DNA of 64,000 nucleotides from contig NZ_VLOG01000012.1 of the NCBI RefSeq assembly GCF_007655305.1, positions 27,075 to 91,074 on the forward strand. The letters are read 5' to 3'. The position numbers and the translations under genes are program-made. Below, in pieces: positions 24,966-48,524 of this stretch (positions are counted from its first letter, which is position 1; each line of letters opens with the position of its first letter). The notes under the pieces are model-generated. The model was not told where the DNA came from, made no database searches, and worked only from the letters and a program-made list of their open reading frames with translations. The DNA comes from Algoriphagus algorifonticola. Lineage in GTDB: Bacteria; Bacteroidota; Bacteroidia; Cytophagales; Cyclobacteriaceae.

Positions 24966-26804
24966 TCAAAGTTGATCTAATTGTTCTAATTCTTCTTTGT
25001 ATCCCCCTGATAAAATTGGAAATCTGTACCAGGTTTTGGGGTCTACATTGAATTGGTCCAAGTGAAAGGAGGGAGCCAATCGCTCTCTTTTCCATTGGTT
25101 TCTGGACCAAAGTTGAAAGAATTTTTTAATATATCCCTTCAAAATCTGATCTTCTATCTGTATCTCTTCTTTTAAAATCAGAAATACATCCATAGGTGAT
25201 CTTCGGTCTCTGATTGCGAGTTTTTCTATTTCTACAATCAGCGAATAAGGCATCAAATCTTTTTCATCAGTTTGAGTCCTTTCAGCCGGCCTTAATTCAG
25301 CTGAAGGCTGCAGGGAATTCACTAAAGCTAATCCTGGCCTGTCGAGATTTATTTCTGCCCAGCGCAACCAATGAAGTATAAAATATTTATCTACCGCTGC
25401 AATAGGGGAGATACTTCCGCTGGTATCACCGTCCATGGTAGTATAACCTACGTCTCCTTCACTTCTATTGGATGTAGCGAGCAGCAAAGCATTATTGATA
25501 TTTGCCAGCATCCAAATAATTGGAGATCGGGTTCTAGCCTGAATATTCTGCAAGGTGATATCATCCTCGGCCCAAGTCAATTTCCTGCCAATAGCATTTT
25601 CAATTTTCTGGGTATAAGTGCCGACCTCTTCATCAATGGTCCAATGATAAAAGGTTGCTCCTAGGCTTTCAGCCAATTCTTTAGCACTTTTAAACGTGTC
25701 AACCGATGAATTTTTAGTGCCCTGATAAGCGGTAGTGAGAAGTTGATTTACCAACTCTTTTTCTGCAGAAGCTGAATTTTGAGGGATTGGAAAAGAGATT
25801 TTTTTGCAGAAGTTTTCTAGTCCTAATTCTTGAATTCCTCTTCTGACCATTTCTGCGACCAAAATCGCAACGGTGGAGGAATCAGCGCCTCCGGATAGGG
25901 AAAGTACAAATCCTCTGCTTTTGCTTTTTCTCAAATAATCAAAGAGGCCTAAACTGGCGGCTTGAACAAACTCTTCCTCCTTGCTTAGGATTCTAGCAAT
26001 TTCTTGAACTTCTTCTTTGACTTCAAAAGTCAAAACCTGAAAATCTTGGTAGGATAGGAGTTGATTTCTATACAAAACCTTGCCGGATTTAGCCAGCATA
26101 GTCTCTCCGTCGAAGATCATTCGACCAGCTTCATTTCCAAGTAAGTTGACATAGCAGTAATAGCAGTCAAATTCCTTGGAGCTAAATTCAATCAATTCTT
26201 TCCGCTCTAGGGTTTTTCCCATGGCGAAATGACTAGCACTTGGATTGAATATTAAATCTACTTTTCGTTCGCAAAGTCTATAGCCAGGTCGAATAGGTCC
26301 TCTCCAGGCATCTTCACAAATTTCAAAACCATAGTGGATGTTTTTGTGATGAAAAGTAATATCTCCAAAAGGGATTTTTTCACCGAAGAAATCCAGGTCG
26401 ATAATCTCATGAGCTTTCCAAGGGGTAAACCAGCGAAATTCGTAATGAACTCCGTCTATGGCCATATACTGCTTTGCCACAAAACCTTTCAGTTTCCCGT
26501 CTTCCACAATAGCCATCGTATTGTAAACCTTATTTTCAATTCTCACAGGAAGCCCAATGGCAACAGTGATTCCCTTGCAATGGGGCAATAAGGTTTTGAG
26601 TTGATCCAGAGCTTTGATAGGAAACCAATAGCTTAAAAATAAATCCTCAGAGCCATAGCCTGTGATGGCCAGCTCAGGGAAACAAAGAAGTTCTACCTTC
26701 TTTTCTCTAGCTTCATTGATTGCAGAAACAATTCTTTGGAGGTTGCCAGACCAATCCAAAGGTGTTTGATTTAGGGGAGCTGCTCCGATTTTGATTGCAG
26801 ACAT
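24966..26804 (-). CDS. nadE: Glutamine-dependent NAD+ synthetase
   Basis: 612 residues with two domains. The N-terminal nitrilase-type glutaminase (about 1-265) has the triad E44 (FPELAITGYG), K111 and C163 (GFEICEDAW). The C-terminal NAD synthase domain (about 280-600) has the ATP pyrophosphatase loop SGGADS (304-309). It amidates nicotinic acid adenine dinucleotide to NAD+ using ammonia from glutamine. It lies between rnc and lgt with short gaps (16 and 13 bp), suggesting one transcript. Confidence 0.95.
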   Translation of the reverse strand: MSAIKIGAAPLNQTPLDWSGNLQRIVSAINEAREKKVELLCFPELAITGYGSEDLFLSYWFPIKALDQLKTLLPHCKGITVAIGLPVRIENKVYNTMAIVEDGKLKGFVAKQYMAIDGVHYEFRWFTPWKAHEIIDLDFFGEKIPFGDITFHHKNIHYGFEICEDAWRGPIRPGYRLCERKVDLIFNPSASHFAMGKTLERKELIEFSSKEFDCYYCYVNLLGNEAGRMIFDGETMLAKSGKVLYRNQLLSYQDFQVLTFEVKEEVQEIARILSKEEEFVQAASLGLFDYLRKSKSRGFVLSLSGGADSSTVAILVAEMVRRGIQELGLENFCKKISFPIPQNSASAEKELVNQLLTTAYQGTKNSSVDTFKSAKELAESLGATFYHWTIDEEVGTYTQKIENAIGRKLTWAEDDITLQNIQARTRSPIIWMLANINNALLLATSNRSEGDVGYTTMDGDTSGSISPIAAVDKYFILHWLRWAEINLDRPGLALVNSLQPSAELRPAERTQTDEKDLMPYSLIVEIEKLAIRDRRSPMDVFLILKEEIQIEDQILKGYIKKFFQLWSRNQWKRERLAPSFHLDQFNVDPKTWYRFPILSGGYKEELEQLDQL

Positions 26805-26820
26805 GTGTAATTGATTTGAA

Positions 26821-27561
26821 TCAGGTGGCGATATTCAGTTCTTCACAGGCATTTTTGGAGGCATCTTGTTCGGCTTTCTTTTTAGTGCTTCCTTTTCCTT
26901 GAGCTACACTTTTGCCTTCTACTTCCAGCCCCACAATAAACTCTTTGAATCGCTGATTGCCGTGTACTTGCAATACTTTAAACTCCAGCTGTTTGTTTTC
27001 TTTTTGGGACCACTCGATGATTTTACTCTTGTAATTGGTGGTCGTGGCGATCATTCCCTCCAAGTCAAAGTGGAGGAGAATTCTTTTAAGAATAAAGCGC
27101 TTGGTAAAATGATAGCCCCGATCCAAATAGGTGGCTCCAATGAAAGCTTCCAGCATATCTCCATAAAGAGATTTATTTCCTGTAAAGTTTCTTTCTCCTA
27201 TTTCCTGATCCAGGACATTTCTGAGCCCAATTTTAATTCCTGTTTCATTCAGACTTTCCCGGTTTACCAGTTTGGAACGGGTTTCCGTCAAAAAGCCCTC
27301 ATCTCTGTAGGGATATTTTTGAAAAAGATGCTCAGCGATGACAGCACCTAGCACTGCATCTCCCAAAAACTCCAGTCTTTCATTGGAAATCCTGAATCCT
27401 TTGGAAGTTTCCTCTCCTAATCCGGCAGGAGTTAATGCGAGTCGGTAGAGAGAAATATTAAAAGGCTTGCTCCCGGTCATTAATTTGACCGAGGCAGCAA
27501 GCCTTTTGTCTTTATTGTTGAGAAAGAGAAGATGTACTCCGAGTTTCTGAAAGAGTTTCAA
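26821..27561 (-). CDS. rnc: Ribonuclease III
   Basis: 246 residues from TTG 27561. The catalytic signature NERLEFLGDAVL, the downstream GDMLEAFIGATYLDRG motif and a C-terminal dsRNA-binding domain (GSTKKKAEQDASKNACEEL) are intact. It cleaves double-stranded RNA in rRNA processing and mRNA decay. A longer reading from ATG 27618 would overlap the conserved end of fabF by 50 bp, so I prefer the TTG, 7 nt after the fabF stop; the annotated start could differ. A strong hairpin lies 55-102 nt into the coding sequence, possibly a self-cleavage site. Confidence 0.93.
   Translation of the reverse strand: MKLFQKLGVHLLFLNNKDKRLAASVKLMTGSKPFNISLYRLALTPAGLGEETSKGFRISNERLEFLGDAVLGAVIAEHLFQKYPYRDEGFLTETRSKLVNRESLNETGIKIGLRNVLDQEIGERNFTGNKSLYGDMLEAFIGATYLDRGYHFTKRFILKRILLHFDLEGMIATTTNYKSKIIEWSQKENKQLEFKVLQVHGNQRFKEFIVGLEVEGKSVAQGKGSTKKKAEQDASKNACEELNIAT
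27460..27507 (-). promoter_or_regulatory. Strong RNA hairpin inside the 5' part of rnc
   Basis: In the rnc mRNA, AAAAGGCTTGCT (27507-27496) pairs perfectly with AGCAAGCCTTTT (27471-27460). Inside that, two GC pairs and CGGTCA/TGACCG continue the stem, giving about 20 bp with two single-base bulges and a 6-nt loop. It encodes the ordinary residues KRLAASVKLMTGSKPF, so the structure sits on coding sequence. A role in RNase III autoregulation or attenuation is inference. Confidence 0.6.
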
Positions 27562-27568
27562 ACCCTGA

Positions 27569-28819
27569 TCAGTTATATTTTTTGAAAATGACAGAACAGT
27601 TGTGTCCACCAAATCCAAATGTATTACTCAGCGCATAATTTACTTCTCTTTGCTGCGCCTTATTGAAAGTTAAATTCAATCCCGGGTCAAATGTTTCATC
27701 ATCCGTGAAATGGTTGATGGTAGGAGGGATCAAACTATGCTTGATAGCAAAGATAGATGCGATAGCTTCGATAGCACCAGCTGCACCTAAAAGGTGACCT
27801 GTCATGGACTTTGTACTACTGATATTGAGTTTGTAAGCATGCTCTCCAAAAACTTTTTGGATGGCTTTAGTCTCACTTACATCTCCCAACGGAGTAGATG
27901 TTCCATGTACATTGATGTAATCAATATCCTCAGGCTTTAAGTTGGCGTCATCTAAGGCTGATTCCATCACTGAACTAGCTCCCAAGCCTTCTGGATGTGG
28001 AGCGGTAATGTGATTAGCGTCTGCGGACATTCCTCCGCCTACGATTTCAGCATAGATTTTAGCACCTCTAGCTTTGGCATGTTCGTATTCTTCCAGAATC
28101 AATGCGCCAGCTCCTTCACCTAAAACAAAGCCATCTCTGTCTTTGTCAAAAGGTCTGGAGGCTGTTTCAGGAGAATCATTTCTCTGAGACAGGGCTTTCA
28201 TAGCATTGAATCCACCGATACCGGCTTCGGTAACTGCTGCTTCAGATCCACCAGAGATAAAGATATCTGCTTTTCCTAATCTGATGTAGTTAAATGCATC
28301 GATTAGGGCGTTGGTTGCAGAAGCACAAGCCGAAACAGTTACAAAGTTTGGTCCTCTAAATCCATATTTGATGGAAATAAAACCTGCACTTATATCAGCG
28401 ATCATTTTAGGGATAAAGAAAGGATTGAACCTTGGAGTTCCGTCACCTTTTGCAAAATCGGTCACTTCATCCTGGAAGGTTTTTAATCCACCTATTCCTG
28501 AGCCCCAAATGACTCCCGCTCTGGATTTGTCAATTTTTTCAAGATCTAATCCCGAATCTGCCATTGCCTCATCTGCAGTGATCATTGCATATTGAGTAAA
28601 GGGATCCATTTTTCTGGCTTCCTTTCTGTCAATGAATTGATCTAGATCGAGGTTTTTGATTTCGCAGGCAAACTGGGTTTTGAAAAGTGAAGCGTCAAAC
28701 TTGGTGATTGGTGCAGCACCACTTACGCCCGTAGACAAAGCCTTCCAAAATTCTTCGGAAGTATTGCCTATGGGTGTAAGGGCACCAATACCAGTTACAA
28801 CAACTCTTTTTAAATTCAT
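27569..28819 (-). CDS. fabF: Beta-ketoacyl-ACP synthase II
   Basis: 416 residues, elongating condensing enzyme of type II fatty acid synthesis. The Cys-His-His triad is C165 (VSACASATN), H305 (NVHGTSTPLGD) and H342 (MTGHLLGAAG). It has the usual length and start (MNLKRVVVTGIGALTPIGN). It lies 19 bp downstream of acpP, the standard pairing, with rnc following almost directly. Confidence 0.97.
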   Translation of the reverse strand: MNLKRVVVTGIGALTPIGNTSEEFWKALSTGVSGAAPITKFDASLFKTQFACEIKNLDLDQFIDRKEARKMDPFTQYAMITADEAMADSGLDLEKIDKSRAGVIWGSGIGGLKTFQDEVTDFAKGDGTPRFNPFFIPKMIADISAGFISIKYGFRGPNFVTVSACASATNALIDAFNYIRLGKADIFISGGSEAAVTEAGIGGFNAMKALSQRNDSPETASRPFDKDRDGFVLGEGAGALILEEYEHAKARGAKIYAEIVGGGMSADANHITAPHPEGLGASSVMESALDDANLKPEDIDYINVHGTSTPLGDVSETKAIQKVFGEHAYKLNISSTKSMTGHLLGAAGAIEAIASIFAIKHSLIPPTINHFTDDETFDPGLNLTFNKAQQREVNYALSNTFGFGGHNCSVIFKKYN

Positions 28820-28838
28820 GGACTGAATTTATTGGTTA

Positions 28839-29075
28839 TTATTTTACGTTAGCCTCAAGGTAGGAAACAGCCTGTCCCACCGTGCCGATTTGCTCAGCCT
28901 GATCATCTGGGATAGAGATGTTGAATTCTTTCTCGAATTCCATAATCAATTCTACAGTGTCTAGAGAGTCAGCTCCCAAGTCATTGGTAAAGCTTGCTTC
29001 CATAGTCACTTCAGACTCTTCTACGCCCAGTTTGTCAACGATGATGGCTTTTACTTTTTGTGCAATTTCAGACAT
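28839..29075 (-). CDS. acpP: Acyl carrier protein
   Basis: 78 residues, acidic. The 4'-phosphopantetheine attachment serine is S37 in [12 protein letters not shown]. It carries acyl intermediates in fatty acid and lipid synthesis. It is the first gene of the leftward acpP-fabF-rnc-nadE-lgt run and divergent from the IPExxxVDY gene; I did not find a clean consensus promoter on its side. Confidence 0.97.
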
Positions 29076-29177
29076 TTTGTGATCAGTTTAGTTAATAACA
29101 CTCCGCAAAGAAATATATTTAAAAGCTAATTGGCAAAGAAATGATTCAAGTAAATTTTTAAGCTTTGGGGCTTTTCG

Positions 29178-29205
29178 TTGAGTTGAATTTTTATTTCTAC
29201 CTTTG
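29178..29205 (+). promoter_or_regulatory. Strong Bacteroidota-type promoter for IPExxxVDY-pyk
   Basis: TTG (29178-29180), exactly 17 nt, then TACCTTTG (29198-29205). The predicted start gives a leader of about 15-17 nt before ATG 29228. This is the cleanest promoter match in the window. Confidence 0.65.
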
Positions 29206-29227
29206 TTTTGCTCCATTTTCTTCCCAA

Positions 29228-29656
29228 ATGAAGAAGGTAAAATTACAGATTGAACATACGTACGACTTTGAGGTTTTGGGCCTTGTATCCCCTGTAAAGG
29301 ACTACAAGATGGCCTGGCTTATCAATCGTCAACTGGATTTAGACCTCATCAAATGGGAGGATCTTGAGATTGAGTTTCTTTCAGATCCACAACTGAAAAT
29401 TAGTCAATATTTCCTTTCTTTACCCCATGGATTTGTTCAACTTTTGAAAAATAAAGCGATCAATTCACAAAATCAGGTCTCTTACCTGATACCTGAACTA
29501 AAAACCATGGACTATTTCCTTTTGGTCCAAGATCAGACCTTTCAAATAAGTATTAATACATTTGCGAATAAACTTGCTGAAATTCCCTTCATTCAAAACG
29601 TAATGAAACTGGATGTCACCAAGCTAAAATCTAGAGAAAACCTATTAACTTATTAA
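29228..29656 (+). CDS. IPExxxVDY family protein
   Basis: 142 residues from ATG 29228 (MKKVKLQIEHTYDFEVLGL). The motif LIPELKTMDYFLLVQ (about 90-104) is the IPExxxVDY-type signature, here with MDY. The family is confined to Bacteroidota and usually sits beside pyk and the acpP-fabF-rnc block, as here. It is cytosolic with no membrane segment. Function is unknown. An in-frame TTG at 29165 would add 21 hydrophobic residues but lies upstream of the promoter, so it is rejected. pyk follows after 6 bp. Confidence 0.85.
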   Translation: MKKVKLQIEHTYDFEVLGLVSPVKDYKMAWLINRQLDLDLIKWEDLEIEFLSDPQLKISQYFLSLPHGFVQLLKNKAINSQNQVSYLIPELKTMDYFLLVQDQTFQISINTFANKLAEIPFIQNVMKLDVTKLKSRENLLTY

Positions 29657-29662
29657 AAATCA

Positions 29663-31087
29663 ATGAGTCATATTAACAAAACCAAAATCCTCGCAACTAT
29701 AGGCCCAGCCTCCAATAATTATGAAACAATCAAAAGCTTGGCTGCTGCGGGGGCAAATGTGTTTCGATTAAATTTTTCTCATGGTACTCATGACATCCAC
29801 GAGGAAGTCATTCAAATCATCCGAAGGGTCAATGAAGAGCAAAATCTGAATTTGGGTATCCTTCAGGATCTTCAAGGTCCTAAAATCCGGGTAGGTGAAG
29901 TGGAAAACAATGGGGTTGAAATCAAACCTGGGGAGCCAATAACCATCACCAATGATCCAGTAGTCGGTACTAGTCGATTGGTTAGCACAGTTTATCAAAA
30001 CCTTCCTAATGATGTGGTTGCAGGTGACAGAATTCTAATCGATGACGGAAATCTGGAAGTTGTAGTAAACGATACAGACGGCAAAAATGTCAATTGTACC
30101 GTTATTCATGGAGGGATTTTGAAATCAAGAAAAGGGATCAACCTTCCAAATACTAAAGTTTCCGCTCCTTCTTTGACTGAAAAAGATATTGAGGATCTTG
30201 AATTCGGTCTTTCTCAGGATGTTGACTGGATTGCTTTATCTTTTGTCAGATCTCCGGAGGATATTTATGATTTGAGAGAAAGAATTCAAAAAGCTGGAAA
30301 GGTTTGCAAAATCGTTGCAAAGATTGAAAAGCCTGAAGCACTTGAAAATATAGATGCCATCATTGATGCTACTGATGCGATTATGGTTGCAAGAGGTGAC
30401 TTGGGTGTGGAAGTTCCAATGGAGATAGTTCCTCTTTGGCAGAAAAGAATGGTTGAGAAATGTAAATTGGCTTGTAAGCCTGTAATCATTGCAACCCAGA
30501 TGATGGAAAGCATGATTCAGAATCCGAGACCAACCCGGGCTGAAACCAATGATGTGGCCAATGCGGTTTTAGATGGTGCAGATGCAGTAATGCTTTCTGC
30601 TGAAACAGCTTCAGGAAAATATCCTGTAAACGCGGTAAAAGCGATGAGTAGTATTATCAGCTACTTGGAGCAAAATGCTGAGATCTATCATAATCTTTAC
30701 AAGATTCCTGAAGACGACACCACTTTCTTAAGTAATAATTTGCTGTTGATGGCTGCTAGGCTATCCAGAAACGTCAAGGCTAAAGCAATTGTAGGCATTA
30801 CCTCTTCAGGATTTACAGGATTTAGAATTGCTTCCCACAGACCTTTGGCCAATATTTTTATTTTCACCAGAAATAAGCAGTTGATTACTCAAATGTCTTT
30901 GGTATGGGGAGTGAGAGCATATTTATATCAAAACCAGGTTTCAACAGATGCTACTTTTGAGGATATTGAGAAAACCCTGAAAAGGGATGATCATGTCAGC
31001 GCAGGCGATATTATTATTAACACGGCAAGTATGCCTTTGAAAGCGAAAGGCAGAACAAACATGCTTAAGATTCATCAGGTAACCTGA
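29663..31087 (+). CDS. pyk: Pyruvate kinase
   Basis: 474 residues. It converts phosphoenolpyruvate and ADP to pyruvate and ATP. The N-terminal TKILATIGPAS, the active-site region IVAKIEKPEALENIDAII...VARGDLGVEVP and the MMESM...PTRAE motif are intact. The C-terminal allosteric domain is present. It is probably co-transcribed with the IPExxxVDY gene from the promoter at 29178-29205. A terminator follows. Confidence 0.97.
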   Translation: MSHINKTKILATIGPASNNYETIKSLAAAGANVFRLNFSHGTHDIHEEVIQIIRRVNEEQNLNLGILQDLQGPKIRVGEVENNGVEIKPGEPITITNDPVVGTSRLVSTVYQNLPNDVVAGDRILIDDGNLEVVVNDTDGKNVNCTVIHGGILKSRKGINLPNTKVSAPSLTEKDIEDLEFGLSQDVDWIALSFVRSPEDIYDLRERIQKAGKVCKIVAKIEKPEALENIDAIIDATDAIMVARGDLGVEVPMEIVPLWQKRMVEKCKLACKPVIIATQMMESMIQNPRPTRAETNDVANAVLDGADAVMLSAETASGKYPVNAVKAMSSIISYLEQNAEIYHNLYKIPEDDTTFLSNNLLLMAARLSRNVKAKAIVGITSSGFTGFRIASHRPLANIFIFTRNKQLITQMSLVWGVRAYLYQNQVSTDATFEDIEKTLKRDDHVSAGDIIINTASMPLKAKGRTNMLKIHQVT

Positions 31088-44742: not shown

Positions 44743-44794
44743 CATGTCAATTCGGGCAAGGTCGATGGGTTCTCGACTTCGCTCGAACTGACAT
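44743..44794. repeat. Palindromic repeat related to the 16.1-kb element
   Basis: Nested inverted repeats: TGTCAATTCG (44745-44754) / CGAACTGACA (44784-44793) with one mismatch, and GTCGA (44761-44765) / TCGAC (44773-44777). The segment TCGACTTCGCTC-N4-TGACAT matches the core of 16101-16219. It lies 21 bp after the acylase stop and may act as a transcription end structure. Confidence 0.6.
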
Positions 44795-48202: not shown

Positions 48203-48273
48203 CCTCCGATCGTACTCGGATCGTAAGCTCCATAGGAGCGTACTATGTAGTAGCCAGGGGTTTTAACCCCTGG
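48203..48273. repeat. Cluster of short palindromes including CCAGGGGTT/AACCCCTGG
   Basis: CCAGGGGTT (48254-48262) and AACCCCTGG (48265-48273) form a perfect 9-bp stem with a 2-nt loop. Smaller palindromes (CTCCATAGGAG near 48229-48239, and TCCGATCGTACTCGGA near 48207-48222) lie just upstream. I believe similar GGAGC...CCAGGGGTTTTAACCCCTGG blocks are common dispersed repeats in Bacteroidota genomes, from memory. Confidence 0.55.
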
Positions 48274-48524
48274 TTTCATTATGCAACGCCTTTACCCAGC
48301 GCTGGCCCTATTTCTTCTTTTGGAAATGGGGCTTTGTGCCAGCAAGACAGAACGAGATTTTATTTTTATCGGATAGAAAATCCAACGATAAAGCCTCGGA
48401 ATTACTCCCGATTCTTGTCGTTGATCTGAGGGGCACTCTTCAAGAAATTATCAAAATATGCCTTCGGCAAATAGCCAAAAAAAGCATCGAAATATATCCA
48501 CGGCTAAAAAATTAAACTTTTGAC

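Follow-up and report, generated by a model that had tools for sequence, protein, structure and literature searches.

In E. coli, the rncO element of the RNase III gene, rnc, is situated in the leader. It has been described as a 5′-terminal stem-loop of the message (Matsunaga et al., 1996, as cited in Lioliou et al., 2012, PMC3386247). In S. aureus the rnc coding sequence itself contains a stem-loop that is conserved among staphylococci; RNase III cuts it and thereby restrains its own production, and catalytic mutants of the protein accumulate two- to three-fold (Lioliou et al., 2012). In S. coelicolor, RNase III cuts its own transcript both within the rnc cistron and upstream of it, and the cuts fall in loops and not in the duplex, according to a review (PMC10126417).

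As in S. aureus, a stem-loop lies inside the coding sequence of rnc in Algoriphagus algorifonticola, in the 64,000-nt stretch of DNA analysed here (the window). Here, rnc is the third gene of a tightly spaced minus-strand unit with fabF and an ORF that we take, from its sequence, to be acpP-like (Table 1); the spacing suggests that the three genes are co-transcribed. The nearest named rnc locus is that of A. ornithinivorans (99% protein identity). The longest rnc ORF has an N-terminal extension (27561-27618) that overlaps the end of fabF, and because several relatives carry stop codons there, the true start is probably the TTG at 27561 (GTG in some relatives), just past the fabF stop. The initial annotation preferred this start, and the upstream stops in relatives back it; counted from it, the hairpin occupies +55 to +102, as annotated. 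The distance from the fabF stop to the hairpin is 61 nt, and it is near-constant, at 50-63 nt, in the hairpin-bearing loci scanned.

Table 1. Window positions of the hairpin, its parts and the surrounding genes.
Feature	Position	Strand	Basis
Hairpin in rnc mRNA, codons KRLAASVKLMTGSKPF	27460..27507	(-)	Fold, conservation, covariation
Outer stem, 5′ arm AAAAGGCUUGCU	27496..27507	(-)	Fold; mostly near-invariant among relatives
Outer stem, 3′ arm AGCAAGCCUUUU	27460..27471	(-)	Fold; mostly near-invariant among relatives
Inner 6-bp stem, 5′ arm	27486..27491	(-)	Fold; inner pairs covary in relatives
Inner 6-bp stem, 3′ arm	27474..27479	(-)	Fold; inner pairs covary in relatives
Loop, 6 nt	27480..27485	(-)	Fold
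rnc (RNase III), longest ORF	26821..27618	(-)	Pfam Ribonucleas_3_3, Ribonuclease_3, dsrm
fabF, directly upstream of rnc	27569..28819	(-)	Pfam ketoacyl-synt, Ketoacyl-synt_C
acpP-like ORF (acyl carrier protein, presumed), start of likely acpP-fabF-rnc unit	28839..29075	(-)	ORF list

A 20-bp hairpin made of sixteen rnc codons

The hairpin comprises exactly sixteen codons, KRLAASVKLMTGSKPF, which are codons 38-53 of the longest rnc ORF. Read from 27507 to 27460, it consists of a 12-bp outer stem, a 1-nt bulge, two GC pairs, a 1-nt bulge, a 6-bp inner stem and a 6-nt loop, and it folds just as had been annotated. At 20 bp in total and −31.1 kcal/mol for a 61-nt fragment (z −7.9; none of 200 dinucleotide shuffles was as stable), the rnc transcript contains a stable hairpin of about two helical turns. 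The 12 outer pairs form with probabilities of 0.79-1.0 in mRNA contexts of 341, 501 and 1001 nt. In a scan of 127,904 48-nt windows on both strands, the site was the most stable of all (−31.2 and −30.3 on its two strands), the next distinct site reaching −25.3. The opposite strand folds as well (−32.8, z −9.6), because any inverted repeat does. A comparison with synonymous recodings, proposed with the annotation, also favoured the native sequence: none of 500 recodings of the same sixteen codons was as stable (z −6.1). The annotation had further described the hairpin as ending in a run of U. Four U residues are indeed present, but they are paired within the 3′ strand of the stem and leave no free U tail; the stretch that follows them reads AAUAUU.

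The hairpin occurs once in its own genome, which rules out a dispersed palindromic repeat of the REP or RPE type. Rfam covariance models gave no match at the site (26800-29700, E ≤ 1). Besides the hairpin itself, a model search of the own genome at E ≤ 10 returned weak sites at E 1.1e-4, 0.5 and 2.4. The first of these (L210, 1541-1598; C42:13040-13097 in the genome) lies within the beginning of a small ORF (MRSILRYMNKRLAAS...), which likewise reads KRLAAS, and its likeness to the hairpin is probably a coincidence. Elsewhere in the window, positions 48227-48340 hold two strong adjoining hairpins (for example around CCAGGGGTTTTAACCCCTGG), next in stability after 44745-44793 and spanned only by a mechanically called 94-aa ORF.

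Distribution and compensatory change among relatives

The homologous sixteen codons were located in relatives through protein alignment, independently of the hairpin itself. A search of the genus gave an rnc match in 69 of 72 genomes, and the hairpin was present in all 41 of these 69 that were read, namely the 30 best rnc matches and 11 genomes fetched because the covariance model matched them. Where the hairpin occurs it lies at the same codons, and in most cases its stability greatly exceeds that of synonymous recodings (z −3.5 to −8.5), one genus being weaker. Among 89 distinct rnc loci, 52 had a synonymous z below −3 (−3.5 to −7.1), including all 46 with at least 58% protein identity (Algoriphagus, Echinicola, Cecembia, Mongoliibacter, Indibacter, Pleomorphovibrio and further Cyclobacteriaceae) and, below that identity, three Marivirga-type and three Fulvivirga loci. 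The hairpin is absent from the remaining 37, which had z of −2.1 or higher (Reichenbachiella, Marinoscillum, Ekhidna and many MAGs).

We scanned 341 genomes of the order with a covariance model (R1), counting as carriers only full-length matches at E ≤ 1.6e-7 and leaving many weaker matches out of the count. Carriers numbered 54, with 46 in the own family (f1), 7 in f22 and 1 in f15, and every one of the 54 sites was placed in rnc at the homologous codons. Matches in the own family came from the own genus and 12 of the 19 other genera sampled; among the own-genus genomes listed, 19 of 19 matched and none stood among the unmatched genomes listed, beyond which lie a further 213 unmatched genomes. 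Reading rnc across whole families placed the hairpin in 7/8 f22, 5/15 f15 and 1/8 f5 genomes, with one more partial case in f5, and left it absent from 1/8, 10/15 and at least 6/8, respectively. Beyond the own family, the hairpin is thus present in some members of three further families, and it is retained in carriers down to 41% identity in the RNase III protein. Two of the five f15 carriers (L221 and L222, of one genus) are weak (−13.1 kcal/mol, z −2.7 to −2.9), the outer ten pairs and a short inner stem being all that they retain. In the rnc of 30 genomes picked mostly as non-hits there was no full hairpin and one partial f5 stem (L175, z −3.5). A second model (R2) was run on 395 genomes of the class, the order included, under strict filters that lose weak matches. 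Outside the order it matched 12 genomes at E ≤ 0.001, all over spans of 26-39 nt, and none of these matches was placed in rnc: six loci that were read hold no rnc, five genomes have rnc on another contig, and one incomplete genome (G724) has no rnc match at all.

On a quick rnc tree with many weak forks, made without duplicate rows and without rows shorter than 150 aa, the carrier label requires 11 changes by simple Fitch parsimony. For this count carrier status was assigned by eye to L159, L160, L221, L222 and L223, while L161, L212 and L175 were treated as partial. With so many changes and so little resolution in the tree, a single origin followed by losses and multiple origins both fit. Lineages without the hairpin had no consistent replacement in the rnc stretch scanned (106 loci; 51-nt windows from the segment onward, about 50 per locus with 60 recodings each), where the group lacking the hairpin was defined mechanically by z above −3 and so includes the weak f15 carriers L159 and L222. 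The best windows ranged from z −1.4 to −5.5 per locus at scattered positions, with single-locus outliers in L233 (−5.5), L190 (−5.2), L181 (−4.9), L104 (−4.8) and L080 (−4.7). Strong folds elsewhere in L179, L194 and L198 were likewise confined to single loci and showed nothing systematic. The hairpin-less L080, Reichenbachiella agariperforans, has another fairly stable fold just inside and beyond the homologous segment, with a 60-nt window from +10 at −22.7 kcal/mol and a 51-nt window from codon 8 at −15.5 (synonymous z −4.7).

Pairing was high in the relatives that carry the hairpin. Over 47 loci the outer 15 pairs comprise 705 cells, of which 95.3% were paired, against 32-61% with slid partners, and in 80 distinct 48-mers 92.8% of 1520 cells were paired over 19 pairs, percentages that are biased because the sets were chosen for having the hairpin (admission to alignments A1 and A2 required a synonymous z ≤ −3, a choice that favours pairing, and A2 omits L175 and L178). 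More informative are the double changes. The 80 48-mers held 95 doubly changed cells at 8 pairs, compared with 26.3 in shuffles and 15-48 in slid controls, and the covariation score was 0.233 versus 0.121. On a tree of rnc from which the segment itself had been excluded, and with L223 and non-carriers removed before branch changes were counted, 24 of the 34 branches with double changes keep the pair, while partners slid by 1-3 positions gave 0, 1, 1, 1, 1 and 6 such branches. Paired codon substitutions in related genera, which the initial annotation had recommended looking for, are thus found, and the lack of stem conservation in close relatives that it named as a refuting sign is not seen, as the stem is kept with compensatory changes.

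The inner stem takes part in this covariation (pairs 18-30 and 21-27; 14 double-change branches, 10 of which keep the pair), as expected if the length of the duplex matters. In f15 an outer pair has gone from A-U to C-G (AAACGG/CCGUUU), and in one genome of that family (L223) the stem is retained but displaced three bases; in f22 the closing pair is C-G. Further compensatory examples come from f22 (CUUAGUGCC/GGCGCUAAG), Marivirga (GUAGCU/GGCUAC), Fulvivirga (AUUACC/GGUAGU) and an f1 genome, L274 (AAGCGGCUU/AAGCCGCUU). In 45 distinct hairpins G-U cells outnumbered A-C cells by 47 to 6, which argues for selection on the sense RNA and not on DNA or antisense RNA; from these sequences, the pairing appears to be selected in the sense mRNA.

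Both ends of the stem coincide with codon borders, so that pairing runs codon by codon, 1 with 16, 2 with 15, and so on. Full pairing of Arg with Pro is possible only as AGG-CCU or CGG-CCG; of 81 hairpins, 78 use the former and 1 the latter, and L274 adds another, independent CGG-CCG. Leu and Lys can pair only as CUU-AAG, the choice in 61 of 61 Leu-Lys hairpins; a further 19 combine Leu with Arg as CUU-AGG, which includes a G-U pair, and one is an exception. Changes at codons 4 and 13 go together (Ala-Ser, Ala-Arg, Ile-Ser, Val-Tyr, Ser-Ala). Coding and pairing together leave few other codons, so that a near-invariant outer stem needs no sequence-specific reader, and we set such a reader aside as unnecessary. 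The expectation that the hairpin must be compatible with conserved residues is true in a weak sense, but its codons precede the Pfam domain matches of the product, which begin at residues 58 and 80, and the residues they encode vary, largely following the pairing. Lineages without the hairpin have other residues here, often GFTPS. By alignment, the encoded segment corresponds to the N-terminal portion of an RNase III of known structure (1o0w).

Possible functions of the hairpin

We lean toward the view that the hairpin is a duplex in the acpP-fabF-rnc message that is bound or cut by RNase III to limit its own synthesis. RNase III prefers duplexes of about 20 bp, or roughly two helical turns. 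Across 81 distinct hairpins the median duplex length is 20 bp, and 79 have 18-22 bp. Self-cleavage is favoured by the stability, conservation and covariation of the duplex, by its size, which suits the enzyme, and by the precedents in S. aureus and S. coelicolor. The sequences show the fold, its retention at the same codons, compensatory change, selection on the sense strand and a near-constant place past fabF; binding, cleavage and an effect on the level of the enzyme are inferred. The duplex forms some 61 nt past the fabF stop, in early rnc codons. Once enough RNase III is present, the enzyme would bind and cut it, giving a 5′-truncated rnc mRNA that would make no enzyme and an acpP-fabF mRNA whose 3′ end is created by the cut. 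The outcome would be that a scarce nuclease is able to share a message with abundant fatty-acid enzymes, and the locus suggests how this can be done. Some results count against this view. The hairpin is absent from many Cytophagales, no match outside the order was placed in rnc, and in lineages without it, where no consistent substitute was found in the rnc stretch scanned, autoregulation by a coding hairpin would have to be dispensable. We also compared the hairpin with the pre-16S and pre-23S rRNA stalks of one relative (L246), which by analogy are likely RNase III substrates. No obvious shared sequence was seen, so that no sequence signature links the hairpin to them, and an RNase III signature common to both was rejected on this comparison.

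A more far-reaching proposal, which we put forward tentatively, is that the hairpin is an ancient RNase III RNA operator found in several families of one Bacteroidota order. Its sixteen codons would be self-complementary codon by codon, pairing rather than protein function would have dictated part of the N-terminal helix, and the site would split the enzyme off the acpP-fabF message. The restricted codon pairs of the stem are in themselves a rarely clear example of an RNA structure that steers the sequence of a protein.

A further point against self-cleavage is the succession of an A-rich arm, a G+C stem and a U-rich arm, which is reminiscent of an intrinsic terminator. Termination or attenuation is the main rival, though the weaker of the two readings: transcription of acpP-fabF would partly stop at the hairpin, and ribosomes translating rnc would unfold the stem, permit read-through and keep rnc low. 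We regard this as unlikely, if far from fanciful. The stem in the transcript is G+C-rich, A4-GGCUUGC...GCAAGCC-U4 has the layout of an intrinsic terminator, and both the position just past fabF and the sense-strand preference fit one. In addition, the six out-of-order model matches that were read (L204-L209) are hairpins with the same core lying outside rnc, five of them in no ORF and the sixth only in ORFs of at most 45 aa, and L204-L206 have long U tails. These hairpins of other Bacteroidota share the A-tract, the GGCUUGC stem and the U-rich arm with the rnc hairpin, but they span less (32-36 nt), and three of the six have longer free U tails, whereas the rnc hairpin is intragenic and has a long inner stem. 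The other three (L207, L208 and L209, family f61 of the same class) have the core AAAAGGCTTGCTAA...TTAGCAAGCCTTTT, lie in no ORF, have no long U tail and recur in three genomes of one genus, as terminators or as something else. An intrinsic terminator has an unpaired run of about 6-8 U in 8 nt right after the stem. At the rnc site the run comprises just 3-4 U and is part of the paired stem, and no U-rich unpaired run is kept in relatives: the 8 nt after GCC hold 3-6 U (3 in 1, 4 in 15, 5 in 38 and 6 in 34 of 88 loci, hence at most 5 in 54), in a count that starts after the last G-C pair and thus includes partly paired bases. By comparison, the only two clear terminators in a survey of gene ends in the window have 7 U in 8 nt. 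Moreover, several relatives have broken the U run and kept the stem, namely L159 and L160 of f15 (GCCGUUU, with a compensating C-G pair), L274 of f1 (GCCGCUU, z −7.1, with two compensating pairs) and L161 of f5 (tail CCUGCU), while in L223 the displaced stem has the tail CCUCCUAAA. L274 speaks further against a terminator. Covariation of the inner stem is likewise not needed for termination. A terminator pattern scan did not list the sense hairpin, a result that is not decisive because the pattern makes no provision for bulges.

Three other explanations seem less probable still. The hairpin could protect or process the 3′ end of the acpP-fabF mRNA through another nuclease or an RNA-binding protein, with any effect on rnc secondary. 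Its near-constant distance from the fabF stop in the carriers scanned would suit such a role, but the fabF-rnc spacing is as tight in many hairpin-less relatives, the hairpin keeps to the codon frame of rnc, and we know of no protein partner for an element of this kind, so that we consider it improbable. Alternatively, with no nuclease involved, the stem might slow ribosomes or tune the folding of the N-terminal helix of RNase III, as its place in early codons and in frame would allow; a speed bump would hardly need compensatory changes that cost amino acids, and the segment precedes the Pfam domain matches, which makes this very doubtful. That the site has no RNA function at all, being a chance or DNA-level palindrome (a repeat element, a template-switch mutation or a cruciform), is scarcely credible. 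An inverted repeat does fold on both strands, as this one does, but the site is single-copy in its genome and covaries in many genera, and a DNA palindrome would not be expected to favour G-U over A-C; covariation and strand bias together contradict one.

Comparison with known RNase III sites

The functional kind of the proposed element is already known, and within the literature searched its place, its lineage and its codon-by-codon self-complementary design are new. No report of this rnc hairpin was found in that search, which left most subscription journals aside. The sites inside rnc of S. aureus and S. coelicolor are unrelated to the Algoriphagus hairpin. In S. coelicolor, the polycistronic absB/rnc transcript is cut in stem-loops, one of them inside rnc (Xu et al., 2008, as reviewed in PMC10126417); the review also reports a second site upstream of rnc and cuts in loop regions, which we count against cutting in the duplex here. 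The E. coli element is 5′-terminal, whereas the Algoriphagus hairpin is fully coding. The S. aureus site is cut at U+296 in a long irregular helix, while that of Algoriphagus lies at about +55 to +102, next to fabF; judged by distance along the gene, the two do not occupy homologous positions, and cutting has been demonstrated in S. aureus and is inferred in Algoriphagus. If RNase III does cut the Algoriphagus hairpin, self-control of this enzyme through a hairpin in its own coding region would extend to a third, distant phylum, at a new place in the gene.
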